A stretch of 30,146 bases of DNA from positions 1-30,146 of the IMG/VR virus record IMGVR_UViG_3300030430_004489. One strand, given 5' to 3'. Each line of letters opens with the position of its first letter. Positions within the stretch are counted from its first letter, which is position 1. The stretch is from a virus. Below, piece after piece: positions 740-29,356 of this stretch. The notes beneath the pieces were generated by a model. It saw nothing but the letters and a program-made list of their open reading frames with translations. It did not search any database and had not been told where the DNA came from. A program made the translations under genes and the position numbers.

Positions 740-768
740 TTGACCAATATAATATATTGGTTAATATA
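740..768 (+). promoter_or_regulatory. Promoter with 15-bp palindromic operator in the spacer
   Basis: TTGACC (740-745), 17-base spacer, AATATA (763-768). The spacer carries a perfect palindrome, CCAATATA-A-TATATTGG (744-760), whose 15-base core CAATATAATATATTG (745-759) is one of seven related sites in this window. A repressor bound there would block RNA polymerase. Drives the gene at 800. The promoter is inferred from sequence only. Confidence 0.7.
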
Positions 769-799
769 TAAGAGAACCCAACAACAAAGGACAAACAAA

Positions 800-1114
800 A
801 TGACTAAAGTTCAACTCATCAAAAAAGCAGTCTCACTTATGCCAACCGCTCAAGATATGTTTCAAGATTTTCCTAGTGATTGGACAATCGAATTAACAAC
901 AACCAAATTCACACACAGCTATACAACAGCGCAACAAAACGCTGATATAACATTCTCAGAATACGGAAAAAAAGAAGCACTTGCGCAGGGTGATGTTTTA
1001 TTTATCAAAATGCACTACGGATTCAAAGCCTTTGAAAATGGCAAGTTGGTATCATGTGGCGAAGCTTCCACAAAAAAAGAATTGTTCTATGTAAACAAAC
1101 TTATTGCAGCATAG
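800..1114 (+). CDS. Hypothetical protein, 104 aa, stand-alone unit
   Basis: The start is chosen at MTKVQLIKKA because AAAGGACA lies eight bases upstream, in the same arrangement as the other small genes; longer readings upstream run through the promoter. The protein looks like a small alpha/beta fold: a basic N-terminal helix, then alternating strands with a FIKMHYGFKAFENGKLV stretch. It has its own operator-bearing promoter (740-768) and its own terminator (1137-1158), and points against the neighbouring head genes, which is the layout of a phage moron. No family recognised. An anti-host role is possible but only a guess from context. Confidence 0.75.
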   Translation: MTKVQLIKKAVSLMPTAQDMFQDFPSDWTIELTTTKFTHSYTTAQQNADITFSEYGKKEALAQGDVLFIKMHYGFKAFENGKLVSCGEASTKKELFYVNKLIAA

Positions 1115-1136
1115 ACAAAACAAACCACGATACACA

Positions 1137-1158
1137 GGCCGCATAATGCGGCCTTTTT
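1137..1158 (+). terminator. Rho-independent terminator
   Basis: Perfect inverted repeat GGCCGCAT-A-ATGCGGCC (1137-1153) followed by TTTTTATTT, 22 bases after the stop of the gene at 800. It also lies at the convergent end of the minus-strand gene at 1157. The same stem sequence recurs at 4958-4974. Confidence 0.85.
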
Positions 1159-1558
1159 ATTTGCGCTTGAAAAACAGATCCGTACACTTTTCGAGCGTAT
1201 CACCATCAAGCCCATCACATGCGGCCTGTATGCTTTTCGTGTTGCTGATGTTGGCTATTTCGTTGCAATCGCTTTGTGATGTCTGTGCATCGATCCCGCG
1301 TTGCTGCATCCTACAAAACATTTCACGACACAAAAGATCGCCTTGCGCTTGCGTGACAATAAAATCAGGCGCGCATATATCTTTAACTAAATCTAGTTTG
1401 GTTAATTGCTTTTGTACTTCGGTTTGACCTTTGGCCACCTCATCGCCGCCAACAGCCACAACAACAGGCTCATTTTGCTTTGTGGTGTTCTGAACAACAA
1501 CGACACCGCCAACGCCTAACACGAGGCCCACAACGCCCGCAATCACTAACTCTAACAT
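1157..1558 (-). CDS. Membrane-anchored protein with six cysteines, 133 aa
   Basis: The start MLELVIAGVVG is preferred over an upstream ATG because AGGAAG lies seven bases before it. Residues about 4-23 form one Gly/Val-rich membrane helix with no clear signal-peptidase site, so a type II anchor is likely. After a linker, the C-terminal half carries six cysteines (in ICAP, LLCRE, MFCRM, SDCN, AACDG and EKCT), as in a small disulfide-bonded domain outside the inner membrane. It follows a 33-residue membrane protein and the portal-MuF gene in one minus-strand run. A spanin-like, superinfection-exclusion or host-envelope role is conceivable; no family recognised. Confidence 0.65.
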   Translation of the reverse strand: MLELVIAGVVGLVLGVGGVVVVQNTTKQNEPVVVAVGGDEVAKGQTEVQKQLTKLDLVKDICAPDFIVTQAQGDLLCREMFCRMQQRGIDAQTSQSDCNEIANISNTKSIQAACDGLDGDTLEKCTDLFFKRK

Positions 1559-1562
1559 GCTT

Positions 1563-1664
1563 TTACTTCCTATCATTTGTGAAACTCATAATTACATCTA
1601 TGACCAACAAAACCAAAAGGCCCATTATGATCCATGCTTCATTAGGATAACCAAAAATGAGCAT
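1563..1664 (-). CDS. Single-pass membrane peptide, 33 aa
   Basis: A very short frame, starting two bases after the portal-MuF stop (TGATATG). A GGTGAT box within the end of the portal gene can serve as ribosome site. The product begins MLIFGYPNEAW and has one hydrophobic helix of about 17 residues (IIMGLLVLLVIDVIM) and a short polar tail ending NDRK. Its stop overlaps the ribosome site of the next gene at 1558, a tight coupled arrangement that supports it being real. Holin-like or accessory membrane function is possible; the sequence alone cannot say. Confidence 0.55.
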   Translation of the reverse strand: MLIFGYPNEAWIIMGLLVLLVIDVIMSFTNDRK

Positions 1665-1665
1665 A

Positions 1666-4600
1666 TCAATCACCGATCAACGGGATTAATGTACACCTGC
1701 AGTTGATATCCTCAGATGCAATCCCAAACCCGCCGGGGCTTTCGGTGCTGTCGCCTGTGGACGGTACAACAAACTTATCATTGACATCTACAACTTGACC
1801 GTCAAGCTCAATATGTGTATCGCGTACACTATCATCAAGCGACGATAACCACTCTTTGCGAATGTTGATCCCGTTGTTTGCTGCGGTTGTGTAGGCTTGA
1901 TCCGTTGCCATATTGACCGCCTTTGTTGATTCGGTTCGTGCAATCGATCGCGCCCGCTTCGCTGAAAAGATTGCATCACGTTCGAGATCCCGCGCCATTT
2001 CATCGACTGAATCACCATTCAGTAATCCAGCCTCAACAATCTTTTTGATCTTGTTTGCTGTGGTTTGGCTGATCTGCATTGACGCAAGATCGTTGGCATT
2101 GACAGCCGCTTCACGACTTCCAAAGATCAGATCAAGGGGTTTTGTTTTGCCCGCTCGCGCAAAGACATCATCAAGCGCATCATTTCCCGCCAAGCTCCAA
2201 ACACTTAACCATTGACGCACCATTTGTTTACGTAAAATACGCATTTCGTCAATAGGTGACAATAATGAGGCCCAGTCAATCACGGCCCGCGTAACCTTTG
2301 CAGATCCTGCATGTTTGCGGCTTACAACATAATCTTTGATACGGTCTTGATAACGTTTAAGCGATTGCCTGAGGTATGTATACACAACACGCTCAATGCT
2401 CTTTTCAGCGGGTTGTTGCACCCGTTTCACCCACCCGTGCCACATGTCCGATCGTTCTTTGCGTGCGTTGATCTTTTTCTTTTCCTCCTCAATGAGCTCT
2501 TTCATATACGTTTGACCACGATCGCCAACAACAAACCATTTGATTTGTGCAACGGTACCGGCAAGGCGAAAATCTTGTAAATGACGTGCGGCCCATGATT
2601 CGCGCTTACGTATTGCCATCTCTTCCGTATCGGTTTTTGGCTCTTTATCAGCGCGATCAACAATAGGCTTGAGCCGTCTGTATTGGTTGTTGCCCTCAAT
2701 GTTTCCACCCTTGCGCCATATTTGCGGCCAATTGTCTTTTAAGTCTTGTGCATAGTCTGCATCAAATACTCTGTATTGTGAATTTGCAAGCGATACCGTT
2801 CGATCGTCTCCTTGCGTTGGAAAGTTTGTTATTTCCTCCTTTTTCGTTTGCTCCTTTTCCCATGGCGCAACGGGTGCGGTTTCATCAAATCGATCATACA
2901 AATCTTTGATTTGCTCATAAAGACGCTCTTTGTCCTTTTGGGTTGCGCCGCTCAGGTTGTAATAACCCGCGCCAAATTTAGGCTCACCACGTACCGAAGA
3001 TCCTGCGGCAACAACACCACGAAAAACGATCTGTAAATCACCGTTGATCATTTTGGCGATAGGCAAGCGATACGATGCCGGATCATCATCGCCGCCCCTG
3101 TTGACAAACAAAAAGGCTTGCGCATATCGATCCATGTTTTCATCATCGCCTAATATCTTTTTTGCTTCACGTTTGGTAAATCCCCAGTTTTGATCCTTTG
3201 CAGCAAGATCAAGATCTTTCCACCCATAAATCAAGTGTTTTTTTTTATCGTCATCATCCTCAGCATTTGACAGCGGGTGATCCTTTGGCAATAGATCGGT
3301 ATCATATGGTGATCGTCTGTACTTGCCTGTACGAAGCGCATACAACAAACCATTCACGCGCCCCATGGCCCACTGTGCGCCGCTTGAAACCGACGGGCGC
3401 ACGCTCTCGGGATTGCCCTCGTATGCAGCCAAACCGCGCCAATATGACACCGCCAAATAACCGCTATTGGTTAGCTTTTTCTTTGGGTTGTCGCCGTACT
3501 CCTCATTATGATCCTTTGCCTTTTTTTTTAATGCCTTTTGTGTTGATTCAGGTAATGCGCCCATAGCCTCAAAAGCATTACTCTTGAGGCCATAATTAGT
3601 TTCTTGCTTTTGGTTTTTGTCAATGGCTCTAAGCATAAATTCGAGAGCTCGCACGTTTTGGCCCTCCTCATCGCCTATATCTTGCGCGGGTGTTTCTCGT
3701 TCATCCTTTGGTATTATAGGGGCATCTTCAAGGCCCTCATACATGTACGCATCAGCCGGATCCATACCATTAAGTATATTTTTGGTTACGCGGTCAAGCT
3801 GTGAATCACGTATCGTTTGCAATGCTTCGACACCTGAATAATCGATTTCAACACGCAAGGAAGTATCAAACCGCTTTGCAATTTGCGTGAGCAAGAAACT
3901 CAATCGTTTACCTCTTTTGGTTTGTACTTCCCAGTAGTTTTGTGCCTGTTGCCGTGATACCGCAAAGTTTGCGCTATTATCACCCAACACCGATGGCGGC
4001 ACGCCAAACACCGCGCTAATCGCTTGCCTTGTATAATCTCGTACGGCCTGAAATTCGAGATCACGCGGCGATACCTGCAACGGTTCAACATTTACTTGAC
4101 CGCTTAAGACCATCGCCCCGCCCTCTTGACTCATGCCTTTGTATGCGTCAAGTATTGCACGTCGTTGCTCATAATCCCAAATGTCAGCCTCATCGGATGG
4201 ACTGATCAAAATGTCAGGCCGCCCCTTTTTTGCTGCATCACTGGCTAGCTTTTGCGCGCTTATATCGGCCCCTATTTCGCGTTGTAATGGTTGGATACCT
4301 CCGACACCATACAAAGCATTTACACCCGCGCCCCAAGAAGCACTCTGAGCGTATACGACACGCTCGATCGGATATGCAACAATGTTGCCACTATCCTCGA
4401 ACTCAAAGCCCTTAATTCCGACTATTGGATCCGTAATGATTCGCGTTTGCTCAGGATGCAAACGGAACAATGAGGCGGGTGTATCCTGAGGCCCTGCGAG
4501 CAAAACATAACAACCGCCCGTTAACATCAAGTCAACGATCAACTGTTCGCGAAATGAAAAGCCGTCAACGTATGTGCTTGGTTGTTCCATCAAATCAAGG

Positions 4601-4896: not shown

Positions 4897-4957
4897 AGTA
4901 TCACCTCACATTTGCAAATATAGCACGATCGCGGGGGTATTGCCCAAATACAACAAA

Positions 4958-4974
4958 GGCCGCATTATGCGGCC
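4958..4974 (-). terminator. Hairpin terminating the moron at 4996, weak T-run
   Basis: Perfect inverted repeat GGCCGCAT-n-ATGCGGCC followed on the minus strand by TTTGTTGTATTTG, 21 bases after the stop at 4996 and before the ribosome site of the portal gene. The stem is the same as at 1137. The interrupted T-run makes termination partial at best. Confidence 0.55.
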
Positions 4975-4995: not shown

Positions 4996-5400
4996 CTACT
5001 CGCCACACATCCACAGCCAACAATCAGCGTTTTGATCAAGTTTGGTTTCTTTGCAATCGTTTGCAAGTTCTTGATAAAAGTTTGCCATTTCCTCAGCACT
5101 ATCAGCCCAAAGATATTTTTTCATTGATTGAAAGTATTCAATACCTCTTTGTGATTTGTAAAAATCAGCACTGTGTTGAAACTTTGCAACGATACAAAAG
5201 TTTTCGTGATCAGCGTCCATCCGCGCCTCAAAATTTTCTTTTCCATCTCTATGTACGACTATATCAAATTTGTTGTATCCTTGTAAGTTTGGCTCATATG
5301 ATAAAACTTCTTTGATTGCCTTTGTAAGTTCTTTTGTGCTGTTATATTTGCCGTCTTTGCTGATGTATCCCTCATTGAATTCGATTGTATATGTAGTCAT
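4996..5400 (-). CDS. Hypothetical acidic protein, 134 aa (moron)
   Basis: Starts MTTYTIEFNEGY with an AAAGGACA site eight bases upstream. The order beta-strand, helix (STKELTKAIKEVL), strands and C-terminal helices suggests a small alpha/beta protein; the C-terminus is Trp/Cys-rich (DCWLWMCGE). The gene sits between the methyltransferase operon and the portal gene, has its own operator-bearing promoter (5449-5478) and is followed by a hairpin, so it is a self-contained expression unit. Its promoter and leader are nearly identical to those of the unrelated gene at 16510. No family recognised; host takeover or anti-defence is speculation from layout. Confidence 0.75.
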   Translation of the reverse strand: MTTYTIEFNEGYISKDGKYNSTKELTKAIKEVLSYEPNLQGYNKFDIVVHRDGKENFEARMDADHENFCIVAKFQHSADFYKSQRGIEYFQSMKKYLWADSAEEMANFYQELANDCKETKLDQNADCWLWMCGE

Positions 5401-5468
5401 TTTATTTGTCCTTTGTTTTGTTGTTGTTGTAGTTTTTTCCTACACAATCAATATAGTATATTGAAAAG
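5401..5468 (-). repeat. Promoter-leader repeat, copy A
   Basis: About 68 bases that match 16864-16930 with only a handful of differences. The unit contains the palindrome, the conserved CTACAACAACAAC leader and the AAAGGACA ribosome site, and ends at the start codon. The coding sequences behind the two copies are not detectably related, so a promoter-leader cassette has been duplicated or exchanged. Confidence 0.8.
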
Positions 5469-5501: not shown

Positions 5502-5798
5502 TTATTTTTTTGCTTTGCGATCAAAGTAGCGTTTAAGTGCTTCCCTGTACTGTTTTTCATTGTACTGAAATGCGATCATCACATCACGTTGCTCTAACAC
5601 TGAATCATCTATGATGGCATCAAAGAGCATTTCAACGCCATGATCGCCGCATGCCTTTTGATAATCCTCAATCAAATGCGTCAATGTGGTTTGACAATCG
5701 ACCATTTGAATATGAAGCCTCAGGAGCCTGTTGCGTGCTTCTGAGATCTTATGTACAAGGCTGATGATACGCCTTTCAAGCTTTTGCTCATGACTCAT
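5502..5798 (-). CDS. Hypothetical helical protein, 98 aa
   Basis: Starts MSHEQKLERRIISLV with GAGGATC upstream, which is inside the end of the methyltransferase gene (11-base overlap). The product is almost entirely helical and charged, with coiled-coil character (residues about 5-50), and ends KRYFDRKAKK. Overlap with the methyltransferase means the two are co-translated. A role as a partner of the methyltransferase is possible but not shown. No family recognised. Confidence 0.7.
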   Translation of the reverse strand: MSHEQKLERRIISLVHKISEARNRLLRLHIQMVDCQTTLTHLIEDYQKACGDHGVEMLFDAIIDDSVLEQRDVMIAFQYNEKQYREALKRYFDRKAKK

Positions 5799-7086
5799 AA
5801 AGATCCTCAAATAATGATAGTTGTGCGTTTTCGAGTTTGTACTGTTCGCGCGCCGCTTCGATGCGCCCGTCTATGATTGGCATGTATTCCGGTGTGAGCT
5901 CCATACCAATAAAATCAAAGCCCTCAAGAAGTGCAGCCGCGCCCGTTGTACCGCTACCCGTAAAAGGATCAAGTATCACAGATCCCTTTTGCCCGCCAAT
6001 CAATCGACAACACCACCGCATGAGCTTGATCGGCTTAACTGTTGGGTGTATATTGCGCACCTGATCAACCCTTGCACCGGCACCGGCGCGCGGATTCCTC
6101 GATCCTGCGGCCCCCTCTTTTCGTTGTACAACCTCATGACCTTTCATTGGTCTTAAATGGTCAAGCCCTTGCTCACGCTCAGATCGTGAGGCTTTTGGGC
6201 ATTGGTAAAGGTTTGCAGGCCATCGACCAAACTCATCACTTTTTGATGATAGCTTTGACGGGTTATGATCGCCTTTGTACTTTTGCCCGCTTCCATCCAT
6301 ATACGAACCGTATACATTAGAATTACTTTGATGGTTATATTCAAGTTTTTCGTTTGGGCCTACCCAACACGGATCACCATACCCAAAACGACACGCATCT
6401 ATATTGAGCGCACCCGTGCCATGTTTCAATACATTTTGTGCAATGGTCAAACCCTTTTCAAGCGGCTTACGAAGTAACAAAGCGGGTTCAACTGCGGGCT
6501 TAAGTGCCGTGCCAAACCCCGCCCATTTTTGAGCGTCTTGTGTTGCGGGTTTTGTGATTGTTGATACATTTTGCGGTATCCCGTCACCGTTGCCAAACTT
6601 CTCAAACCCTGTGTTTTTTCGTTGCCCTGTTACACTTGTAATGATCCCCGTATCTTCACGAACCGCCCCCGCCTCACGATCGATTGCTTTGCTTATATCG
6701 TGCGACTTTGGAAATCCTGAGAAGTAACACCAGTGAATCATATCACGTATCACAAAACCGCCCTGTTGCGCAGCCATACCCAACGCACAAACGGTACGCG
6801 TTGAGCTAAAGGCTATCATGTGCCCGCCGTGTTTCAAGACACGTAAACACTCAGCAAAGAAGTTGTGACACGGTACGGCTTGATCCCACTCTTTGCCCAT
6901 AAATCCCTTAAGCTTGCGCCCCTCTTCGATGTCTGCCCAAGTGCGCGCTATGCCATCAGGTGACATGCCATACGGCGGATCGGTTACAATCGCGTCAATG
7001 CTATTCGAGGGCAAAGTTTTAAGGAGTTTCATGCAATCCCCGTGAAAAACTTTTGTTGTTGGTATATCATCCCAGTTGTCAATCAT
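5788..7086 (-). CDS. DNA (N6-adenine or N4-cytosine) methyltransferase, beta class, 432 aa
   Basis: An S-adenosylmethionine-dependent DNA methyltransferase. The catalytic motif TDPPYG is at residues 35-40 and the SAM-binding motif DPFTGSGTTG is near the C-terminus (about 373-382). This order (motif IV before motif I) defines the beta class. HPTVKPIKLMRW just before motif I is typical of phage DNA methylases. The region of about residues 130-340 is the likely target-recognition part. The start MIDNWDDIP overlaps the upstream tiny gene as ATGA; a longer reading would begin inside that gene. No endonuclease gene is nearby, so it is an orphan methylase, probably protecting phage DNA or timing replication. 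Target site cannot be read from sequence. Confidence 0.92.
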   Translation of the reverse strand: MIDNWDDIPTTKVFHGDCMKLLKTLPSNSIDAIVTDPPYGMSPDGIARTWADIEEGRKLKGFMGKEWDQAVPCHNFFAECLRVLKHGGHMIAFSSTRTVCALGMAAQQGGFVIRDMIHWCYFSGFPKSHDISKAIDREAGAVREDTGIITSVTGQRKNTGFEKFGNGDGIPQNVSTITKPATQDAQKWAGFGTALKPAVEPALLLRKPLEKGLTIAQNVLKHGTGALNIDACRFGYGDPCWVGPNEKLEYNHQSNSNVYGSYMDGSGQKYKGDHNPSKLSSKSDEFGRWPANLYQCPKASRSEREQGLDHLRPMKGHEVVQRKEGAAGSRNPRAGAGARVDQVRNIHPTVKPIKLMRWCCRLIGGQKGSVILDPFTGSGTTGAAALLEGFDFIGMELTPEYMPIIDGRIEAAREQYKLENAQLSLFEDLYES

Positions 7087-7218
7087 TGGTTTAACCATGT
7101 GTTCAAAGAGTTGTAGCAATAAAAGCAGGCATAACCGCCCTCAACTTTGTAAAACGAAAAACAATCAGGGTTCTCCTTTTGCGCCGCGTATCGTGTTTGT
7201 TGTTGTGAGTATCTCATT
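7083..7218 (-). pseudogene. Tiny gene with an apparent one-base frameshift
   Basis: An ATG at 7218 has the standard AAAGGACA ribosome site, but its frame stops after 17 codons. A one-base shift in the A/C-rich run near 7195-7205 would open a 44-residue frame whose second part (GGYACFYCYNSLNTWLNQ) looks like a genuine Cys-containing protein. It ends exactly in an ATGA overlap with the methyltransferase start. The downstream frame has no start codon of its own. Either a recent one-base indel broke the gene, or there is a sequence error in a slippery CAAACAAAC run. Confidence 0.5.
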
Positions 7219-7265: not shown

Positions 7266-7703
7266 TTATATGTTTGGATAGTACTCTTTTATCAATGTTT
7301 CAACTATCTGCTTTTCTTTGGATGAATCATAATCATCAGGCACAAGAAAAAAAGGCTCATCATTGATCGGCTCACCTGTATCAATATGCTCATTTCTGAC
7401 CTCACCTACAAGATCACCCGTGGGACATTCATCGACATCAAACCAAAACGGATCGGCTGTTTTTTGAAAGTAAATATCACCATAAAAGTCAATAAGTATT
7501 GGCTTGTCTCCAAATGTTTTTTTGGCTCTTGTAATCTTTGTTTTATGTGATCCCTTTGCCACAAGATTACCATCATAATCCCAACTACAATTTCCAAATG
7601 CAAATTTGAACCGATAAACAGGTAATTTGTATTTTTTGCCGTTGTGATTGTATTCTAAGGTTAGGCTGTTACTTTTTCGTAGTGTGTATAAATAGATACT
7701 CAT
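7266..7703 (-). CDS. Hypothetical protein, 145 aa
   Basis: The start MSIYLYTLRKSNSL is chosen because AAAGGACA lies eight bases before it; an ATG two codons earlier is too close to the ribosome site, and readings further upstream cross the hairpin. The N-terminal half has strands and basic residues (RKSNSLTLEYNHNGKKYKL, then a conserved-looking Trp region near FGNCSWDYDG). The C-terminal half is acidic with PFWFDVDECP and PFFLVPDDYD. It is the second gene of the operon driven from 8013-8045. No family recognised. Confidence 0.75.
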   Translation of the reverse strand: MSIYLYTLRKSNSLTLEYNHNGKKYKLPVYRFKFAFGNCSWDYDGNLVAKGSHKTKITRAKKTFGDKPILIDFYGDIYFQKTADPFWFDVDECPTGDLVGEVRNEHIDTGEPINDEPFFLVPDDYDSSKEKQIVETLIKEYYPNI

Positions 7704-7746
7704 TGTCATTGTCCTTTGTTGTGCCCCTTGCGGGGCGGTTGTTGTT
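7704..7746 (-). repeat. Leader-hairpin repeat, copy 2
   Basis: Near-identical partner of 7220-7262, with hairpin at 7723-7736. It starts immediately after the stop of the gene ending at 7745 and ends at the ATG at 7703. Two exact hairpin-plus-leader units in one operon point to a functional intergenic element or to a recent duplication. Confidence 0.75.
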
Positions 7747-7984
7747 AGTTCCATGTATTTGTATTTGGGTATATGTCGCTTTTGGCTTCTCTTTCAAAAG
7801 TCCAAAAATCAAGGTTTGCGCTTTTGCCGCACATGTATCTATATTTCCATACATCTTGCGAAGTATTGATATTTTTCAAAAGCTTATGGCTGTATATTTT
7901 GCCCGCTATGTTTGCGATCAATTTACCGTTTTCGTTGTTGATCATGATGATTGTTGTGCAGTTCGGTGGAAAGATTGCTTTCAT
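7745..7984 (-). CDS. Hypothetical protein, 79 aa
   Basis: Starts MKAIFPPNCTTIIMINNENG with AAAGGACA ten bases upstream. The order beta-hairpin (TTIIMINNENGKLIANIAGK) then helix (SHKLLKNI) and a Trp/Tyr-rich C-terminus ending SDIYPNTNTWN suggests a compact small protein. First gene of the operon whose promoter lies at 8013-8045. No family recognised. Confidence 0.7.
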   Translation of the reverse strand: MKAIFPPNCTTIIMINNENGKLIANIAGKIYSHKLLKNINTSQDVWKYRYMCGKSANLDFWTFEREAKSDIYPNTNTWN

Positions 7985-8012: not shown

Positions 8013-8045
8013 CAATATACTATATTGTATTATTTCAAAAGGCAA
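8013..8045 (-). promoter_or_regulatory. Promoter overlapping 15-bp palindromic operator
   Basis: Minus strand: TTGCCT (8045-8040), 17-base spacer, TAGTAT (8022-8017), inside the perfect palindrome CAATATACTATATTG (8013-8027). Drives the tiny-gene/methyltransferase operon. It begins ten bases after the terminase stop; no terminator is visible between them, so read-through from the packaging operon is also likely. Confidence 0.65.
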
Positions 8046-8054: not shown

Positions 8055-9506
8055 TCATTGTCTGTGCTTTTTATACCTATACAAAAATGAAACCTCGTAT
8101 CTAAGCGCATCCAGCCCATGATCGTGCATTTTTTCAGGGCGATCCTTTCCTTTGGTTTTGCTCCATTTGTACTTTCGAAATTCTTTAATGAGCTCCTTGC
8201 AATTCGAAAATACATAAAGCGCAGGCCGTCCATTTGCATCGAGTTTAAGCCTATCCTTGACCTGATTGATTGTTTCCATCACGCCTATATGTTTTGGCGC
8301 GGGCTTCGTATGGATCCCAAGTTCACGCGCCAAAAGAAGCCGCCCGTCTTTGCTCTCAGGATCCGCAACGACCCACCGCAGATCGGGATCCTTTGCACCT
8401 AATGCAAGAATCATTCGGCCATTTTCAAGCGTGGTTTTTTCGGTCTTGTAATACTCGCGATAGACGTACAACGCATCATCATCCTGATCGTGTGCTATCC
8501 ACAAACATGCAAACGGATTACGCACGCCAAAATCAATGCACATATCACGCGGCCAATGCTCAGGAATCTCAAAGGGTTTGACCACATGCACCGCCCGATC
8601 AAACTCAGGATACACTAACCCGCTTTGACTCGTAAACATGCCAAACAATCGCGCGTTTTGACTTGCTTCGCTCAGATGTGCAACGGCCCGCCTAAGCTTG
8701 TTACTCGATATGTACGGATTATCAAGCCCGCTAATTGCATATCGATCAAAGCCCTGCGGTTGTTGATCAACGAAAAAGTCATACAAAAATGAAAGGCCTT
8801 TCAAGGGTGTTGCTGTAATTAGGATCTTGCCTTGCGTGTCAACTGTTCGTAACATGCACTCATCAAAAACGTCAACGGTTGGCTCTTCATCCATCCACAC
8901 AAATTTGACGCTTGCCCCTTGAAACTTTTCACGCCCTGCGTCCACGGACAAAGACACGATCCGGCCGCCGTTTGGCAACTTCATTGAAGCCCGATCCTGC
9001 GCACGCCAACGTATGTATTTTGTGCCCTGTGGTGCGTATTGTTCCAACTTTGGCCGCCCGTATTCCAGTGCATCACCATACGATAAAGCCGCATACCATA
9101 CCGTTTGCGGCTTACGCTGTATCAGGTTTTCGGGTAGGTTGTTAAGCCTCATCCACTCTTTGACCCACCATTGATCACGCCCTGCGGCAATTGCGATCGC
9201 AAGTTGTGCGCCAAATTGTGTTTTTCCTGCACGGTTGCCCCCTGTACATAAAAAGGCTTCGCCTGTATTTGCAAACCTGATCGCGGCTTCGCGTTGTGAT
9301 GTTCGCCGCTCTTCGATGCCACAATGCAAACATTGGTATGTTCCCATACCGATCATTGTCATTGGTCGACCGCAACCACGCGCGCGATCGCTCTTTTTGC
9401 CGTGCCCATCCCACCTGTGACAATACGGTATCCAAAGGCGCGACAACGCCAAAGGATAGCCTTTTTTGATTTCAAGCAATTGACGGCGGGCACGGGGCAA
9501 AGACAT
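8055..9506 (-). CDS. terL: Terminase large subunit, 483 aa
   Basis: Packages DNA into the prohead: N-terminal ATPase and C-terminal nuclease. Walker A GGNRAGKT is at residues 89-96, Walker B VKFVWMDEE at 200-208, and the coupling motif ITATP at 230-234. The RNase H-like nuclease acidic residues are CIDFGVRNP (Asp325), VADPESKDG (Asp382) and HDHGLDALRY (Asp466). Before the ATPase lie Cys29, Cys45 and a CLHC pair (59-62), which could bind zinc. The start MSLPRARRQL was chosen because it follows the previous stop by two bases with AAAGAG upstream; a longer reading would overlap the upstream gene. Confidence 0.95.
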   Translation of the reverse strand: MSLPRARRQLLEIKKGYPLALSRLWIPYCHRWDGHGKKSDRARGCGRPMTMIGMGTYQCLHCGIEERRTSQREAAIRFANTGEAFLCTGGNRAGKTQFGAQLAIAIAAGRDQWWVKEWMRLNNLPENLIQRKPQTVWYAALSYGDALEYGRPKLEQYAPQGTKYIRWRAQDRASMKLPNGGRIVSLSVDAGREKFQGASVKFVWMDEEPTVDVFDECMLRTVDTQGKILITATPLKGLSFLYDFFVDQQPQGFDRYAISGLDNPYISSNKLRRAVAHLSEASQNARLFGMFTSQSGLVYPEFDRAVHVVKPFEIPEHWPRDMCIDFGVRNPFACLWIAHDQDDDALYVYREYYKTEKTTLENGRMILALGAKDPDLRWVVADPESKDGRLLLARELGIHTKPAPKHIGVMETINQVKDRLKLDANGRPALYVFSNCKELIKEFRKYKWSKTKGKDRPEKMHDHGLDALRYEVSFLYRYKKHRQ

Positions 9507-9508
9507 GA

Positions 9509-9835
9509 TCAAAACTCTTTGCAAATAGATACAAGTTCTTTGTACAACTCTTTGCGTTGTCGATTGAGCAAGATACCAAAATATGAGGCAATCGGCCAAA
9601 GGCTATATTTTCCGGCCTGATAACCTTGTGCCCACTTGTTTACGGTTTGCACCTGCACATGTGATCTTTTTGCAAGCTCTTTGTTGGAATACAGATCCCC
9701 CGCCTCTTCAATCCATTGTTTGATCAGGTTTTCGAAATCAATATTTTTGCGGCTCACACTTTTGCGTTTTGGGTATTTCATGGTTTTTTGCGGTGGTGAA
9801 TCAATCAAAAGATCAGCACGAAAATACCGCCTCAT
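9509..9835 (-). CDS. Helix-turn-helix DNA-binding protein, 108 aa
   Basis: The central stretch (about 45-85) reads NKELAKRSHVQVQTVNKWAQGY, a typical helix-turn-helix, followed by LWPIASYFGI as in phage regulators. The N-terminus is basic. It starts in an ATGA overlap with the upstream gene and stops two bases before the terminase start, so it is strictly co-expressed with packaging genes. It could be a regulator or an accessory DNA-recognition subunit for the terminase; the more typical small terminase is at 10636. Confidence 0.75.
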   Translation of the reverse strand: MRRYFRADLLIDSPPQKTMKYPKRKSVSRKNIDFENLIKQWIEEAGDLYSNKELAKRSHVQVQTVNKWAQGYQAGKYSLWPIASYFGILLNRQRKELYKELVSICKEF

Positions 9836-10635: not shown

Positions 10636-11061
10636 TTAGTCCTCATCAAGATCGATGGTTGGCCCGTCGATCAAGGGTTTTATTTCGTTATTATACTCAT
10701 TGATCAATGTTTGCACGTCAACATTCTCAGCATCAATCGTTATTTGTACAGGCGGCGGGCCGTCTTTGACGTATCCATGGCAACGCTCAAGAAGCCACGC
10801 GGCCGCTTGCCATTGTTCCGAACTTGCTGCGCGAATCACCTCTAGTAACTGATGTGATCCTTTGGTTCTTGCCTGTTCGAGCTTGCGATAAAATGATCGG
10901 TATGGTTGCCGCCCCTCTTTTGCAAGGTTGATCCACCTGTACAGCGTCGAGGGATCAATACCCGCATAGTATGCGCATTGATCGCGGGTGTGACCTTTTG
11001 CGGCCGCTTCCAACAATCTTGATACTATTTGTTCATTGAGAATCTTCGCAGGTTGGCCCAT
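10636..11061 (-). CDS. terS: Terminase small subunit, 141 aa
   Basis: Recognises phage DNA for packaging. The N-terminal helix-turn-helix (GHTRDQCAYYAGIDPSTLY, then RWINLAKEGRQPYRSFYRKL) matches the common phage small-terminase pattern. It is followed by a helical oligomerisation region (ASSEQWQAAAWLLERCH) and an acidic C-terminal tail that could contact the large subunit (PTIDLDED). The start MGQPAKILN is preferred because it overlaps the upstream stop as TAATG. Two genes separate it from the large subunit, a looser arrangement than usual. Confidence 0.85.
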   Translation of the reverse strand: MGQPAKILNEQIVSRLLEAAAKGHTRDQCAYYAGIDPSTLYRWINLAKEGRQPYRSFYRKLEQARTKGSHQLLEVIRAASSEQWQAAAWLLERCHGYVKDGPPPVQITIDAENVDVQTLINEYNNEIKPLIDGPTIDLDED

Positions 11062-11249
11062 TACTTGATCCCCATAGCTTTCGCGCATAATCTTCGCACT
11101 TGCTCACCTGTACTAATGCCATTTTTTGATGCTTGCTTTTGTATTTTCATGAGCATTTTATCAGGAAATACAACGCTCAAAGTTGGCGATCTTTTTCGGT
11201 TGCTGTATGCGTTACCGCCTGCGTTGAGTATGTTATCATTGTCTTTCAT
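11061..11249 (-). CDS. Ribbon-helix-helix protein, 62 aa
   Basis: Starts MKDNDNILNAGG with AAAGGGG upstream; longer readings enter the preceding gene. Residues about 25-58 (LSVVFPDKMLMKIQKQASKN, then GISTGEQVRRLCAKAM) give the strand-helix-helix plan of Arc/MetJ-type repressors. Such dimers bind short AT-rich palindromes, so it is a candidate binder of the 15-bp operator sites in this window. It lies just upstream of the small terminase (TAATG overlap). Confidence 0.75.
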   Translation of the reverse strand: MKDNDNILNAGGNAYSNRKRSPTLSVVFPDKMLMKIQKQASKNGISTGEQVRRLCAKAMGIK

Positions 11250-11901: not shown

Positions 11902-11931
11902 CATTATATGATAATGTATTGGTATTGTCAA
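11902..11931 (-). promoter_or_regulatory. Consensus sigma-70-type promoter of the packaging operon
   Basis: Minus strand: TTGACA (11931-11926), exactly 17 bases, TATAAT (11908-11903), the best consensus promoter in the window. The -10 lies in CATTATATGATAATG (11902-11916), an imperfect relative of the 15-bp operator: same length, CA/TG ends and AT-rich arms, with T in place of A at the third base. Confidence 0.8.
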
Positions 11932-11941: not shown

Positions 11942-12001
11942 AAAAAAAAATGATTGCACGGGTACAAAGAACAAGTGACAACAACAAAACCCGTGCAATC
12001 A
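11942..12001 (-). terminator. Long-loop terminator of the replication operon
   Basis: A perfect 13-bp inverted repeat, ACCCGTGCAATCA pairing with TGATTGCACGGGT (arms 11951-11963 and 11989-12001), with a 25-base loop. On the minus strand it is followed by nine T. It begins 13 bases after the stop at 12014 and sits just upstream of the packaging-operon promoter. The large loop is unusual for a plain terminator, so a regulatory RNA or protein-binding role is possible. Confidence 0.75.
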
Positions 12002-12013
12002 AAAGCAATAATA

Positions 12014-12193
12014 TCAGGGAAATTGTCGATCCGCAATACATCGTTTGATATATCGATCAAGTAAATCATCTACGGTTAATTTATGCCGCTTTGCAATCTT
12101 TTGTAGCTGATCAAGTTGATCATCACTGAGCATGATACGTACACGCGTTTGATCATTTCCCGTATTTTTTTTGTAATCGTATTTTTTTGGCAT
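12014..12193 (-). CDS. Ribbon-helix-helix-like protein, 59 aa
   Basis: The frame starts MPKKYDYKKNTGND behind a strong GGAGG site and encodes 59 residues. TRVRIMLSDDQLDQLQKIAK followed by KLTVDDLLDRYIKRCI fits the strand-helix-helix plan of CopG/Arc-type DNA-binding proteins. The basic N-terminal arm would contact DNA. The gene overlaps the end of the preceding gene by 41 bases in another frame. It ends just before the terminator at 11942-12001. A second candidate for the operator-binding protein of this phage. Confidence 0.65.
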   Translation of the reverse strand: MPKKYDYKKNTGNDQTRVRIMLSDDQLDQLQKIAKRHKLTVDDLLDRYIKRCIADRQFP

Positions 12194-12464
12194 TTGTTAA
12201 ATCCTCCACTAACTGAGATATACTTTTTTTGTTGCCTTTTGGCAATATGTCAAGAATTGCGTTTGCTCTTTCCTGATCGCGTTGCTTTATGAGCTCCTCA
12301 GTTGGTTTGAGCGTGTCAATCCTTACATTTTCGTGTGTACGGCCCATCATGGGCACGGATAGCCTACAATGCACCTGCGATCCGTTTATTTGCTCAATGT
12401 AGCCAACAACGGGCATTTTCATCCATGATACATTAAAAATTACTTTGTCATTTACTTTGTACAT
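12153..12464 (-). CDS. Hypothetical SH3-like protein, 103 aa
   Basis: Starts MYKVNDKVIFNVSW with AGAGGTGA upstream, ten bases after the replication-gene stop. The N-terminal half (about 1-55) has the short alternating strands of a small beta barrel (VNDKVIF, VVGYIEQINGSQVHCRLSV); the C-terminal half is helical and basic, ending LQKKYGK. Being translated directly after the replication protein suggests a role in replication or its control. No named family recognised. Confidence 0.7.
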   Translation of the reverse strand: MYKVNDKVIFNVSWMKMPVVGYIEQINGSQVHCRLSVPMMGRTHENVRIDTLKPTEELIKQRDQERANAILDILPKGNKKSISQLVEDLTNAKKIRLQKKYGK

Positions 12465-12474: not shown

Positions 12475-13500
12475 TTATATAACTGCGCAATCAATCAAAG
12501 CGGCGAAATCTTCGAGGTTTGGATCGCTGATAATCTCTTTTCGTATCTCTTCTGTCAGGTTGCCACCTCGAACCCAATCAAACACCTGATTTGCACATGC
12601 CTCATAATCGTTTGTGTTTGCCCGAAAACGCGCCCATAAGGTTTGAGCCTTGCCGTTGCCATTCATCGCAGCCGCTTGTGCTTTGTCGCTACTCTCAACC
12701 GCCTGCAAAGCCTGATCTTTGATTTCCTCCACAACCTCAGGATCAAGGATGATTGTACTCAATCTCATTTTGTTGTTGTCGTATTTTGTTGGAGGTTTGT
12801 CGCTCTCTTTGGCAACCCATCGATCCTTAAACTTCGCGGCCCAACCGCGCCCAACATACATGCCGTTAATGTCATTTTGGATAATATACGTGTCAAGCTT
12901 GCGTACGGCCTTTGAGACTTGCAACACGGTTGATCCTGCTTTGATAAAATCAAAATCGGCTTGCACGTCAATACTTGCCCAACCTTGAGCCGTTGCATGC
13001 TTTGCCCATAACTCACCCAACCACAGATCACGCATATCAATCTTATCACTGATGAGCGGTTTGACTTCTTGCGTAGGCTTAGTACTCTCTTTAATTGGAT
13101 CTATTTCTTGTATCTCTTTACTTAATTTACTTAGGGGATCATTTTCGATCCCCCTTTGGCTTAGAACTGATCCCCCTGCGGATCGTTTTTGATCCTCTAA
13201 AGGTCTATTTTCGATCCCCTTTGGCTTAGAAATGATCCCGCCTACATCATAGATATTTGATGAGGTGCGCTTTGAACTTTTGAGATTAATCGCGCCTTTT
13301 TCACGCAACTCTTTGAGGCCCCGCTTAATGCTTCCAATTGATAGGCCTGTATTTTCCGATAGCGTTCCCTTTGATGGAAAGGCTTGTCCATCAGCACCCG
13401 CAAAAAATCGCATTTCGATGAGTATCAGGATCGCGGCTTTGCTCAAATCTTGAAATGCCCGCGCATCATCTTTGGTTATCTTGATAAATAAATCAGTCAT
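12475..13500 (-). CDS. Putative replication initiator, lambda-O-like organisation, 341 aa
   Basis: Starts MTDLFIKITKDDARAF with AGGACA upstream. Residues about 15-80 form a winged-helix/HTH domain as in phage replication proteins: AILILIEMRFFAG, FPSKGTLSENTGLSIGSIK, then LKELREKGAINLK. Residues about 85-140 are a low-complexity linker whose DNA holds direct repeats (13137-13240). The C-terminal 190 residues are helical with many Trp (MYVGRGWAAKFKDRW, QTLWARFRANT) and may contact a host helicase or its loader. No helicase or polymerase gene is present, so the phage must recruit host machinery. The gene is divergent from the exonuclease gene and shares its control region. Confidence 0.7.
   Translation of the reverse strand: MTDLFIKITKDDARAFQDLSKAAILILIEMRFFAGADGQAFPSKGTLSENTGLSIGSIKRGLKELREKGAINLKSSKRTSSNIYDVGGIISKPKGIENRPLEDQKRSAGGSVLSQRGIENDPLSKLSKEIQEIDPIKESTKPTQEVKPLISDKIDMRDLWLGELWAKHATAQGWASIDVQADFDFIKAGSTVLQVSKAVRKLDTYIIQNDINGMYVGRGWAAKFKDRWVAKESDKPPTKYDNNKMRLSTIILDPEVVEEIKDQALQAVESSDKAQAAAMNGNGKAQTLWARFRANTNDYEACANQVFDWVRGGNLTEEIRKEIISDPNLEDFAALIDCAVI
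13137..13240. other. Putative replication origin with iteron-like direct repeats
   Basis: Two near-identical 34-35 base direct repeats lie at 13141-13175 and 13207-13240, 66 bases apart; they share ATTTTCGATCCCC, TTTGGCTTAGAA and TGATCCC and differ by one C and one substitution. A shorter related GATC-containing inverted segment lies between. Seven GATC sites fall within 101 bases. An AT-rich tract (about 13085-13135) borders one side, as at a DNA unwinding element. The position inside the linker of the initiator gene is exactly the plan of the lambda origin in gene O. Origin function is inferred. Confidence 0.6.
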
Positions 13501-13538: not shown

Positions 13539-13568
13539 CAATATAACATAATGTATGACACCTGTACA
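13539..13568. promoter_or_regulatory. Divergent promoters sharing an operator
   Basis: CAATATAACATAATG (13539-13553) combines one arm of the common operator with one arm of the 11902 variant. Minus strand: TGTACA (13568-13563), 17 bases, TATATT (13545-13540), toward the replication gene. Plus strand: CATAAT (13547-13552) with TTGTTG upstream, toward the exonuclease and fibre genes. The hexamers are moderate matches. Confidence 0.5.
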
Positions 13569-13585: not shown

Positions 13586-14194
13586 ATGTATGTAGTATTA
13601 GACACAGAAACAACAGGCCTTTACAGCAACAGGCACGAAATGATTGCGTTTTGTGGTATCAAACTTAGTGACAAGCTCGAAGAGATCGATCGATTGCACA
13701 TCAAAATCAAACCGCAAAACATCGCGCAAGCGGATCCGCAGGCCTTGCGCGTCAATGGTTACACTGATTACAAATGGCGTGATTCAATCGATCCAACTGA
13801 GGCCGGAAATATGATCGCTGATTTTATGCGTGATTGTATACCCGTCGCGCACAATTGGCCCTTTGACCGTGGTTTTATTTTGGCGCATCTGAACAAATAC
13901 ACAAACGGACGCAAGATCCTAAGGCGCGGCATTGATACCGTATCACTAGCGAGCGCAGTGTTGATCCCTATGGGTTACAAGAGCGTATCAATGCAAACAA
14001 TCGCGGATATTTTTGGATGGCCAACACAAACACATGAGGCCCTTGACGATACACTTTATTGTGTGCAGTTATTCCGGCTCCTTTACCCGTATAACGTCCG
14101 CAACATGATCAAGGTGCATGCTATGATATACCGTGCTAAGATACGCATGTATACAAATCCAATGCGGGGCAAAAACAATGGGCCTAAATCTTGA
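13586..14194 (+). CDS. DEDDh 3'-5' exonuclease (DnaQ-like), 202 aa
   Basis: All catalytic motifs are visible: Exo I LDTETTG (Asp6, Glu8), Exo II HNWPFDRGF (Asp94) and Exo III HEALDD (His150, Asp155). The fold is that of the proofreading-exonuclease/RNase T family acting on DNA or RNA 3' ends with two metal ions. No DNA polymerase gene accompanies it. AAAGGACA lies upstream of the ATG. It heads a plus-strand operon whose other members are tail-fibre genes, and overlaps the next gene by 17 bases. Roles could include repair, degrading host nucleic acid or trimming recombination ends. Confidence 0.9.
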   Translation: MYVVLDTETTGLYSNRHEMIAFCGIKLSDKLEEIDRLHIKIKPQNIAQADPQALRVNGYTDYKWRDSIDPTEAGNMIADFMRDCIPVAHNWPFDRGFILAHLNKYTNGRKILRRGIDTVSLASAVLIPMGYKSVSMQTIADIFGWPTQTHEALDDTLYCVQLFRLLYPYNVRNMIKVHAMIYRAKIRMYTNPMRGKNNGPKS

Positions 14195-16509: not shown

Positions 16510-16863
16510 CTACTTGAGTAAAGCAATAAATAATTGCTTCTTTGCTTCTATTCTTTTGTTTGGTAAAGGCTCGTCAAGTTCAAACTCTTCAATTCTCTCA
16601 AAATCTTTCATTTTTACAACTTCGATGTATTTGTCAGGATCATCACTGTACTTATACTCTTGTGCGATGTATATTAGATCCTGAGTCAGCTTTGAATCTT
16701 GAGTCAATTTGTAGAAGTCTACATTTCCATCTATAACGATTCGTAGTTCATAAAATGTTTTGTTTGTCCGCTTCTTTTTTTTCGCAGGTTTTGCAACTTC
16801 TGAAAATGATTTCACTGTAAAAGTTTCAAAACAAATGTAATGTGTTGGTTTGATTGTTGTCAT
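16510..16863 (-). CDS. Hypothetical protein, 117 aa (moron)
   Basis: Starts MTTIKPTHYICFETF with AAAGGACA upstream; a longer reading would run through the promoter. Highly charged: a basic patch (KPAKKKKRTNK) is followed by strands (YELRIVIDGNVDFYKL) and an acidic C-terminal half (DLIYIAQEYKYSDDPDKYIE). It has its own operator-bearing promoter and its own strong terminator between the fibre operon and the lysis genes, so it is a free-standing moron. Its promoter-leader is nearly identical to that of the gene at 4996 although the proteins do not look related. Function unknown. Confidence 0.75.
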   Translation of the reverse strand: MTTIKPTHYICFETFTVKSFSEVAKPAKKKKRTNKTFYELRIVIDGNVDFYKLTQDSKLTQDLIYIAQEYKYSDDPDKYIEVVKMKDFERIEEFELDEPLPNKRIEAKKQLFIALLK

Positions 16864-16941
16864 TTTGTATGTCCTTTGTTTTGTTGTTGTTGTAGTATTT
16901 CCTACACAATCAATATACTGTATTGAAAAGAGAAGTGTCAA
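16864..16941 (-). promoter_or_regulatory. Promoter-leader repeat copy B, with operator
   Basis: Bases 16864-16930 repeat 5401-5468. Minus-strand promoter: TTGACA (16941-16936), 18-base spacer, TATATT (16917-16912), inside CAATATACTGTATTG (16911-16925), an operator with one mismatch in the second arm. The leader has CTACAACAACAAC before the AAAGGACA site. Confidence 0.7.
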
Positions 16942-25089: not shown

Positions 25090-25091
25090 AA

Positions 25092-25939: not shown

Positions 25940-25948
25940 AAGTCACCA

Positions 25949-26563: not shown

Positions 26564-26565
26564 AA

Positions 26566-26931
26566 TTACACGTCACGCGCAACATCAAAGACAAATAGAA
26601 ACTCAACGTCAACAGTTGCCCCCGATCCTGCGTGACTCTTGACAATCTTGAGTGATTCAAGAGCGTCAAAATCAAGCTCTTTGGTTGCGGTTAAGGTCAG
26701 ACTTTCTGCGGTTCCTGCAGTAAGTGCCGCGCTTGCTGTATTACGAACAGCAAGAGACGTGCTTCCATTTGATACCGTCAGAATTGCGTAATTTGATCCA
26801 TCCGCTCCCGTTGTAGCATTAGGTACAAGCAAAATTTCTACAAGCTTAAGTTTGCGATAGATTGGCATGTATCTTGTTTCATCGGTCGAAGCACCTGATG
26901 CAACTAGATGTTTAGATAATATTTTTTGCAT
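26566..26931 (-). CDS. Small head protein, possible capsid decoration, 121 aa
   Basis: Follows the major capsid gene by 15 bases. After a helical start (MQKILSKHLVASGAS) it is strand-rich: KLKLVEILLVPNATTG, NYAILTVSNGSTSLAVR, AESLTLTATKELDFDALESL, VDVEFLFVFDVAR. The position and beta-rich make-up fit a capsid decoration or head-completion protein. No named family recognised. Confidence 0.55.
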   Translation of the reverse strand: MQKILSKHLVASGASTDETRYMPIYRKLKLVEILLVPNATTGADGSNYAILTVSNGSTSLAVRNTASAALTAGTAESLTLTATKELDFDALESLKIVKSHAGSGATVDVEFLFVFDVARDV

Positions 26932-26946
26932 TTTGATCCCCTTTTA

Positions 26947-28422
26947 TTAAGAAATTGCCATATTGAAACCAAACGCAACGTTTTTGGTTGCGTCAAGATC
27001 AAGCGTGTCAAAGGTTGCGCGCATTGTGGCAACGATTTCAGTTGCTCCAACATCAATCTTACGATCGGTTTCAACGAGAATACCGCGACGCTCGAAGATT
27101 GTCCATGATGGCGCGTGAGCCATAAGCAAGCCGGTTTTTGTTTTGGTTACGTTGTCATACTTACCCGCAGTGTTGAGATCAGCACTCAAGAAGCGTGACA
27201 TAATGATCGGCATACCCATAATTGCGGCAATCTGTCCGGTGCGTACTGTCGCTTGTGGGCCGAATACATCAATTGTCTTTACTTCACTCAATGATAGAAT
27301 GTTTGCAAGTACGGCCTCAGGCGATGCGAAAATAACAACATCTTGCATAGCAAGCTCACCCATTTGCGCCTTGAGGCCCAAAAGATTTGCAAAATTGAAT
27401 GTTCCCAAATCCGCAGTTGACGATCTTGCAAATGCCTGCTTACGCATACCCTTGAACATTCTACGGTGATCGGATGATCCACCTAATGCGGGACTTGTGC
27501 CCCATCGGCTTCGGATGTTCCAATCGGCGATCGCATCTTGATGTGTTGCGGAGTCATCACCGTTGATAAGCGCATCTTCCATTGCATCATTTAAATCAGC
27601 TACAATTTGTCGTTGGAGACTAGGAATAACCGCTATAGCCGAATCTTCCGCCGCTGCATCATCAATGATAAATCGTGAGGCAAGGCCCTTGATTGAAATG
27701 CTCTTCTGTGATGTCGATACGGTTGACGCGGTGTATTGCGCTGGGTTGTCATTACTAACGGATCCTTTCAAATATGGACGACCGCCACGATTCAAGCGAG
27801 GTATAAGGATTGTGTTTCTCTCAACGGCTTGCTTTTGAAGATTGTCAGCAACAACGCGGGGTAATTGGCTTTGTTCTTCGATGTTGTAATACAGATTAGC
27901 GGCAAACTGATCGGGGATCCACTCAGCACCGACACCAGCATTATCATTGAAAGCCTTTTGAATAAGCGGTTGCATGAAGCGGGGTGCCTTTTGCATGTGT
28001 TTCCACAACTTGAGATCGCTCTTTGGCGTGTGTGGTGTATTCATGATCATACGTGCAAGAGCTCGCTCTTTATTGATCTTGATGAGATCAGCATGCCATT
28101 GATTAACAGGTGTATCACTGTCAAGTAATCCCTTTTCCTCAATGCGTACGGTTCCACGGCCCGCGATCTGTACGTCTTTGTTTTCGGTTTTCCAACGGAT
28201 CCCGTTTTCGCCAACAAAGCCTTTAAGCGCATAATCAGGCGCGTTTAGATGCTCCTCAGTTGCCACAGGTTGCGCGTTTGCTTCTTGGATCAATCGCTGT
28301 GCGCGTTTAAGATCTGAGAGCTGCTTTTCAAACTGTGAAAGTTTTTCAGTACTATTTTTTTGATGAGTTTTGATCCCCTCAAGGATCGCTTTTGCCTCAT
28401 TTACAAGTGTCTTATCACTCAT
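26947..28422 (-). CDS. Major capsid protein, HK97 fold, 491 aa
   Basis: The N-terminal coiled coil (about 1-48, EGIKTHQKNSTEKLSQF, LSDLKRAQRLIQEAN) looks like a delta domain removed by the prohead protease. The HK97 core includes YNIEEQSQLPRVVADNLQ, RNTILIPRLNRGGRPYLKG, SISIKGLASRFIIDDAAAED, DAMEDALINGDDSATHQ and the DVVIFASPEAVLANILSL helix, ending AFGFNMAIS. TTAGGAG lies before the start. It follows the protease gene by 15 bases, the canonical order. Confidence 0.92.
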   Translation of the reverse strand: MSDKTLVNEAKAILEGIKTHQKNSTEKLSQFEKQLSDLKRAQRLIQEANAQPVATEEHLNAPDYALKGFVGENGIRWKTENKDVQIAGRGTVRIEEKGLLDSDTPVNQWHADLIKINKERALARMIMNTPHTPKSDLKLWKHMQKAPRFMQPLIQKAFNDNAGVGAEWIPDQFAANLYYNIEEQSQLPRVVADNLQKQAVERNTILIPRLNRGGRPYLKGSVSNDNPAQYTASTVSTSQKSISIKGLASRFIIDDAAAEDSAIAVIPSLQRQIVADLNDAMEDALINGDDSATHQDAIADWNIRSRWGTSPALGGSSDHRRMFKGMRKQAFARSSTADLGTFNFANLLGLKAQMGELAMQDVVIFASPEAVLANILSLSEVKTIDVFGPQATVRTGQIAAIMGMPIIMSRFLSADLNTAGKYDNVTKTKTGLLMAHAPSWTIFERRGILVETDRKIDVGATEIVATMRATFDTLDLDATKNVAFGFNMAIS

Positions 28423-28437
28423 TGTTATTACTCCTAA

Positions 28438-29226
28438 TTAGGAAAGAAGCGCAGATAAAAAAGCGCGCTCTTGTGGGGTTAAAAATTGTTTCTCTTTGTC
28501 TTTGTCGTCATCCTCATCATCATGATAACCTTTGTCATCCTCTGATGATTCCTCATCATCATGATAGCCTTTATCATCCTCGGAATCGTCATCATGATCC
28601 ATCATATCGGTTTCAAGTTCTTCATCCTTGGGATCAAGTTTTGATTCCTCCATTTCATGACGTGCATACGTCACGATTACAGTATCATCAGTCATTTCAA
28701 CCTCAAGGATGTGTTTGAGGTTTGAGATCTTAAAGTTTCTATTTTGCATTTGATATCCTTTGGCGGCAACTGCATCACCGTTGGCGGGTATTGTTACGAT
28801 TGAGATTTCAAGGAGCTCAGCGCGATCGAAGTATTGCCCGCTTTGCCCGTGTGCAGGATGTGACTTTTCGAGCATTGATCGGGGTGTACTATCGATAGGA
28901 TTAAAGCCTACACTTACAGCATTCAAAAAGCCCGCCTTTGTTTTGCGTGCAACTTCTTTTGCCTGCGGATCGTCCATATCAAATTCTATGTCAACCATTA
29001 ATTGACCGTCAACAACGTCAACGATCCCTTTTCCTATCGGCAAAGCGTTTGAATTGTGATTCAGAAGGATCACGGGGTTTTGTCTAAACTTTGAAAGATC
29101 CCAACCGCCTTGATTGATTACATCACCATATCGATCGGCGTTTGCAGTACTGGCCACAAAAGACACAAGATCGCCCTTTGTTGTACCCTCTCGCAAGATC
29201 TCACATTGTAAATTACGTATGTACAT
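28438..29226 (-). CDS. Prohead protease (HK97 family) with acidic C-terminal tail, 262 aa
   Basis: Catalytic residues visible: His57 in ILLNHNSNALPIGKG, Ser105 in FLNAVSVGFNP, and an acidic third residue likely near AELLEISIV (137-140). Cleaves scaffold domains during capsid maturation. Residues about 190-245 are extremely acidic and contain a tandem repeat of SEDDKGYHDDE (about 215-225 and 228-238). The tail ends LTPQERAFLSALLS, which looks like a scaffold-type capsid-binding helix. First gene of the late operon; AGAGG lies upstream of the start. Confidence 0.88.
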   Translation of the reverse strand: MYIRNLQCEILREGTTKGDLVSFVASTANADRYGDVINQGGWDLSKFRQNPVILLNHNSNALPIGKGIVDVVDGQLMVDIEFDMDDPQAKEVARKTKAGFLNAVSVGFNPIDSTPRSMLEKSHPAHGQSGQYFDRAELLEISIVTIPANGDAVAAKGYQMQNRNFKISNLKHILEVEMTDDTVIVTYARHEMEESKLDPKDEELETDMMDHDDDSEDDKGYHDDEESSEDDKGYHDDEDDDKDKEKQFLTPQERAFLSALLS

Positions 29227-29327
29227 ATAAACCTCTATATGTGTATATACATCATTGTACCGTACTTTGCAATATATACAAGAATTACAAGTATTGAGGT
29301 CAAAACAAAAATAAATAAAAATATTTG
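29227..29327 (-). promoter_or_regulatory. Control region of the late operon
   Basis: About 100 AT-rich bases between divergent operons. On the minus strand I see candidates: TTGACC with TGTATA 17 bases on (-10 near 29285), and TTGCAA with TATATA 17 bases on, nearer the start codon. I cannot choose between them. There is no full 15-bp operator here, so late transcription may be controlled differently from the operator-bearing units. Confidence 0.4.
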
Positions 29328-29356
29328 TTGCATTCTTTTTTCAATATAGTATATTG
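29328..29356 (+). promoter_or_regulatory. Promoter overlapping 15-bp palindromic operator
   Basis: TTGCAT (29328-29333), 16-base spacer, TATATT (29350-29355), inside the perfect palindrome CAATATAGTATATTG (29342-29356). Drives the tiny-gene operon. Confidence 0.7.

Follow-up and report, generated by a model that had tools for sequence, protein, structure and literature searches.

The DNA analysed here, the 30,146-nt IMG/VR virus record IMGVR_UViG_3300030430_004489 of an uncultured tailed phage (hereafter the window), carries seven copies of a 15-bp palindrome, each placed on a promoter. We think it probable that these palindromes are the operators of a single, predicted phage-encoded repressor that would act by blocking promoters. 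An earlier reading, made from the sequence only, had proposed such a phage-wide regulon. Our results support it well: the sites recur at the promoters of related phages, an unsupervised search recovered them, they stand out in a phylogenetic footprint, and other clades have replacement palindromes.

All seven palindromes listed by the sequence-only reading were found in the window at the positions given for them (Table 1). The sites at 745, 5449, 8013 and 29342 match CAWTATAnTATAWTG without mismatch, and those at 11902, 13539 and 16911 with one mismatch each; the class with two mismatches added no further site. Under a third-order Markov model about 0.07 matches at one mismatch would be expected in the window by chance, against the seven observed sites with zero or one; matches without mismatch never appeared in 150 runs, and 0.85 were expected at two mismatches. 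At three mismatches the window had 10 matches, which is not above the shuffles (mean 7). Hence, the signal is confined to the class of zero or one mismatch.

The proposed overlap with the -10 or with the spacer between the -35 and the -10 holds at every site, where the hexamers are sigma-70-like. Operator positions 9–14 form the -10 (TATATT or TATAAT) at 5449, 11902, 13539, 16911 and 29342. At 8013 the -10 (TAGTAT) begins at operator position 6, and at 745 the palindrome occupies the spacer without providing a -10. Promoter-occluding operators are recognised by their overlap with the -10, the -35 or the spacer, and all seven palindromes are placed in this way. We rejected a MerR-like activation from an operator in the spacer, as the spacers have normal lengths (16–18 bp) and give no hint of a stretched promoter. 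That each site serves a different transcription unit stands with a qualification, since site 13539 lies between two divergent genes and site 29342 could also serve the minus strand. The late structural operon was said to lack a full site, which is essentially right; it has its own conserved promoter block, free of palindromes.

We gathered relatives with the large terminase (8055–9506) and obtained about 30 contigs, which form one family of ~30-kb phages. A position matrix built from the seven window sites gave 46 matches in 11 related contigs, which are not 46 independent sites because the contigs include near-copies (G003/G015 and G011/L007); column-shuffled matrices gave 0–0.05 matches per contig. 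Nearly all matches lie 13–75 bp upstream of start codons. Six of the 46 fall inside short called open reading frames (36–51 aa) that overlap promoters; these frames are probably spurious, and no match lies inside a convincing gene. The motif is therefore a feature of promoters and is not equally frequent inside genes.

Conservation extends to the symmetry of the sites. Six of seven relatives have exactly the same 15-mer at the promoter between the initiator and exonuclease genes (CATTATGTTATATTG, 13539), and the seventh departs from it at a single base, whereas the flanks, including the -35 region, have diverged. At this promoter, an average column of the 15-mer is conserved in 5.93 of 6 sequences, against 3.65 and 4.65 for the two flanks. 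Since the 15-mer remained identical despite diverged flanks, it is the symmetry that is conserved and not the -10 hexamer alone; the relatives did not keep the -10 while losing the palindrome. On sequence grounds, a conserved 15-mer amid diverged flanks is not predicted by an explanation in terms of promoters only. The unsupervised search of promoters in the main clade recovered the same palindrome, e.g., in eight of the 24 promoter regions of G002, for which the null maximum was three.

Other clades have operators at corresponding promoters and spell them differently. Unsupervised searches identified CAAGGTAnTACCTTG over promoters in G005, G013 and L081, and CAAGTTAATAACTTG-like sites in G006. 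In the unsupervised promoter search, CAAGGTATTACCTTG emerged in G005, G013 and L081 at or modestly above the null, G013 only reaching the null maximum. By inspection, we found sites of the type AWTATAnTATAAT in group B, CATTATAAGTGAATG-like sites in G014, L014 and L017, and a 23-bp palindrome in G012. In G005, G013, L081 and group B the palindrome lies in the spacer and supplies no -10. Placed on the terminase tree, the operator classes require six changes, the minimum possible, against 18.8 for shuffled labels. Hence, the classes follow the tree. The unsupervised search revealed no clear promoter palindrome in eight outgroup records, and a search for further members of clade C returned known contigs only. 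One outgroup phage (L126) carries four AGCTATTGATTAGCT-like palindromes within ~460 bp (11987–12447), which are perhaps replication-origin repeats.

The sites are also graded by the genes they precede. In the main clade all 12 sites of core operons (initiator/exonuclease and packaging) are imperfect, whereas 25 of the 31 sites of accessory genes are perfect (Fisher p ~1e-6, with orthologous sites not independent). The accessory genes behind the operators are absent from most relatives, which indicates that operator-bearing cassettes are gained and lost whereas the operator persists. This grading predicts that accessory genes respond at lower repressor levels than the replication and packaging genes. 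A further possibility, less likely than not, is that a phage without a recognisable integrase keeps its variable accessory genes as cassettes, each with its own promoter and a perfect phage-specific operator, that the core operons keep weaker, selected copies, and that the clade-specific spelling acts like an immunity group. If so, a gene acquired across clades would not be repressed before its operator had come to match, and silencing could extend to co-infecting phages of the same clade. As a separate observation, the promoter-leader DNA of two accessory genes (5392–5468 and 16855–16930) is nearly identical, with 46 nt at 91% and 33 nt at 94%, which looks like the copying of an entire promoter-operator-leader unit.

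In the mechanism that we infer, the repressor, probably a small dimeric protein, would bind the dyad (predicted target, e.g., CAATATAnTATATTG) and cover the -10 or the spacer, which would block the start of the host sigma-70 RNA polymerase. Repression by polymerase blocking is suggested by the sites lying over the -10 or in spacers of normal length. Perfect sites would keep the accessory early genes under tight control, and conserved imperfect ones would control the operons for replication and packaging less tightly. The repressor may also restrict its own synthesis, since both candidate binders discussed below are encoded downstream of operators (13539 and 11902). One small viral protein would probably be a genome-wide off-switch for nearly all early promoters.

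Table 1. Palindromic sites and associated genes in the window.
Feature	Position	Strand	Remarks
Palindrome CAATATAATATATTG	745..759	+	In -35/-10 spacer (TTGACC-16-TAATAT); upstream of accessory gene 800-1114
Perfect palindrome	5449..5463	-	Over -10 (TTGCCT-17-TATATT); upstream of accessory gene 4996-5400
Perfect palindrome	8013..8027	-	TTGCCT-17-TAGTAT; upstream of accessory genes 7745-7984, 7266-7703, 7083-7217, then methyltransferase 5788-7119
One-mismatch site CATTATCATATAATG	11902..11916	-	Over consensus promoter TTGACA-17-TATAAT; upstream of packaging operon
One-mismatch site CATTATGTTATATTG	13539..13553	.	Between divergent replication-initiator and DnaQ-like exonuclease genes
One-mismatch site CAATACAGTATATTG	16911..16925	-	Over -10 (TTGACA-18-TATATT); upstream of accessory gene 16510-16863
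Perfect palindrome	29342..29356	.	Upstream of 29404-29658 (+); ~115 bp upstream of structural operon (-)
Large terminase	8055..9506	-	Last gene of packaging operon; used for relatives and tree
XRE-like helix-turn-helix protein, 108 aa	9509..9835	-	Just 5' of large terminase gene; rival candidate binder
Second ribbon-helix-helix-like protein, 62 aa	11061..11249	-	Fold read from sequence
Ribbon-helix-helix protein, 59 aa	12014..12193	-	In replication operon; leading candidate binder
Replication initiator (HTH_36, DnaD-like)	12475..13500	-	First gene of the operon containing 12014-12193
DnaQ-like exonuclease (RNase_T)	13586..14194	+	Divergent from initiator

The protein that reads the palindromes may be the ribbon-helix-helix (RHH) protein encoded at 12014–12193, to which, from sequence, we give about even chances. 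Two RHH proteins had been proposed for this role. The one at 12014–12193 remains a good candidate: all palindrome-bearing contigs in which its locus is covered contain it, and 15 outgroup records gave at most one weak match. The other, at 11061–11249, is unlikely to be the common binder, and we rejected it in this role since it was not found in G005, G007, G012, G013 and G014, which are mostly operator-bearing. The structural model of 12014–12193 has two helices (24–36 and 41–54) after a TRVRIML strand segment that DSSP left unassigned, and nearly all its structural matches are RHH proteins (PutA, CopG, Arc, ParG and NikR), in agreement with a strand-helix-helix fold. Eight of 15 members match the Pfam profile RHH_7 (PF16777) at E up to 0.05. 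Judging from the modelled structure it is an RHH-fold protein, which we do not file as a member of RHH_7. Within clade A, where there is one common operator, the putative DNA-facing strand TRVRI is kept in G000 and G010 (TMIRI in L025); between G000 and G010/L025 the other candidate, the XRE-like protein at 9509–9835, has ~31–32% identity with the operator unchanged.

Several observations weigh against this RHH protein as the binder. It scores 21.7 bits against RHH_7, below the cut-off of 27. L018 and G006 have an identical RHH strand (KIKIYL) with different operator spellings, and clades A, B and D have common R-R-T strand residues with differing operators. Since the same strand or strand residues go with differing operators, the RHH protein is disfavoured as the sole reader of the bases. 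Its co-occurrence with the palindromes counts as about one event in the sequence comparison, both marking the same subfamily. The protein may instead serve the repeats of the late promoter, which are described below.

The same operator regulon could be read by the XRE-like protein, in the manner of 434 Cro or of a restriction-modification controller; we regard this as clearly less probable than reading by the RHH protein. The sequence-only reading had missed this third candidate. Its model has the five-helix XRE fold (predicted local distance difference test, pLDDT, 87), with structural matches to C.EcoT38IS, C.BclI, SinR, 434 Cro and the lambda repressor, and it scores 19.5 bits against HTH_3 (cut-off 23). 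In its recognition helix, the conserved W is followed by R in the five phages whose operators are CAAG-type, and by A/V/L/I/M in nine, L018 included, whose operators are CAAT/CATT-type. On paper this covariation (R after W, G at operator position 4) is chemically sensible. Yet, group B (G008, G009, L009, L011 and L078) lacks the gene beside the terminase but still has conserved palindromes, and within clade A the recognition helix and the overall sequence vary widely while the operator is the same. Moreover, outgroups that show no clear palindromes also have XRE-related proteins encoded close to the terminase. We did not take covariation as proof for either reader (RHH K-strand against operator position 4, 5/1/0/8; XRE W-R, 5/0/0/9), because the independent events are few and because identical helix-turn-helix domains with distinct motifs have been reported in cluster A mycobacteriophages (PMC6550527).

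The rest of the weight, beyond the RHH and XRE-like candidates, goes to another phage protein or a host factor. It is unlikely that a host transcription factor binds the sites, with phages carrying host operators and clades differing because they infect different hosts. Such a factor would fit the retention of palindromes in group B without the XRE-like gene, and the host is uncultivated, with no close match to the window among cultured phages. Two putative phage-encoded DNA-binding proteins are nonetheless at hand, and the spelling drifts within one frame (CAnnnTAnTAnnnTG) along the phage tree. A reading that does without any binder, in which the sites are merely conserved -10 regions with an A+T-rich symmetry arisen by chance, is very improbable. 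TATATT or TATAAT does make up one half of most sites, but the outer CAA/TTG and the left half, which a -10 does not need, are conserved in all seven window sites. The symmetry also persists where flanks differ and where a spacer palindrome supplies no -10 (745; G005, G013, L081 and group B).

A regulon of many operators read by one phage repressor has parallels in known systems. The operators of 434 Cro and of restriction-modification controllers (2cro, 2ef8 and 2b5a) are likewise short, symmetric and at promoters, and are bound by small five-helix proteins resembling that of 9509–9835. Arc of phage P22 is a small phage RHH repressor, and Arc chains are among the structural matches of 12014–12193. 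In P22, Arc works at a single control region, whereas the sites here are genome-wide; operators of 434 Cro and of controller proteins are also confined to one control region, and their lengths differ from the 15-mer. In logic, the best parallel is offered by the stoperators of cluster A mycobacteriophages such as L5 and Bxb1, with 20–30 sites per genome that are asymmetric, oriented with transcription and mostly away from promoters (PMC6550527). Both systems have many copies of one short site throughout the genome and clade-specific sequences, and some stoperators are true promoter operators (PMC6550527). In contrast, the phages studied here have 4–8 palindromes per genome, all at promoters, and no recognised integrase. 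The clade-specific sequence is thus shared with stoperators, whereas the asymmetry in one orientation and the location mostly off promoters are not. Membership therefore fails: the palindromes of these phages are symmetric, much less numerous than stoperators and placed on promoters. By analogy, the nearest precedents for an RHH reader are SvtR of SIRV1 and AvtR of AFV6, small RHH regulators of archaeal viruses. Their targets are several viral promoters, their own among them, with eight potential conserved sites in the case of AvtR (PMC5569661). They differ in having archaeal hosts, TATA/BRE promoters and long imperfect inverted repeats, and the high-affinity site of SvtR lies ~80 nt from the promoter elements (PMC5569661), unlike the core-promoter sites found here. 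The multi-operator phage regulon is therefore known as a kind, and the clade-specific promoter operators described here are a variant of it.

Temperate mycobacteriophages are the best-known case of genome-wide, clade-specific repressor sites. Were small uncultured phages without a recognisable integrase to use the same logic, this would suggest a control of timing or of superinfection outside classical lysogeny. With at least five spellings of the operator and two candidate readers in the family, DNA recognition can be tested with a few proteins of 60–110 residues and sites of 15 bp.

The late promoter has repeats of its own. A conserved TTGYAATT/TTGCAA motif lies at the promoter of the structural operon (29264–29295, minus strand, upstream of 28438–29226). 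We found TTGCAA/TTGYAATT upstream of this operon in all 14 genomes examined from the RHH subfamily and in none of eight outgroup genomes. Nearly all 14 have one copy near -46, and most have further copies ~9 or 18–19 bp away. These repeats are possibly a late-gene switch.

Two peculiarities were noticed in group B. In contig L010 a frame resembling a C5-type DNA methyltransferase (type read from sequence) occupies the slot of the XRE-like gene, 5' of the terminase. In G009 (9496–9792; L055) an N-terminus like that of the 54-aa protein at 241–405 of the window is fused to an XRE domain, and this fusion protein is a possible alternative regulator in group B.

Among the products encoded in the window are a 1076-aa protein that combines portal parts with MuF-type head-morphogenesis parts, large and small terminase subunits, a DnaD-like replication initiator and a DnaQ-like exonuclease; it further has head and tail genes and encodes a DNA methyltransferase and an endolysin-like protein. 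Some of these names are sequence readings, and none of the window proteins searched was recognised as an integrase. Cultured phages gave no nucleotide match to the window and no match to the RHH protein, and their terminases had at most 29% identity among the best records listed. A genome scan gave one 44% capsid match, to a metagenome-assembled Acidimicrobiaceae contig, which is too weak for naming a host. The ends of the window (1–457 and 29691–30146) repeat each other with ~91–95% identity and one small indel; either the contig over-runs a circular or permuted map of ~29.7 kb, or it joins two strain variants. Finally, a 39-bp tandem duplication (28511–28588, 82% alike) encodes the acidic, D/E-rich tail of a head-protease-like protein.

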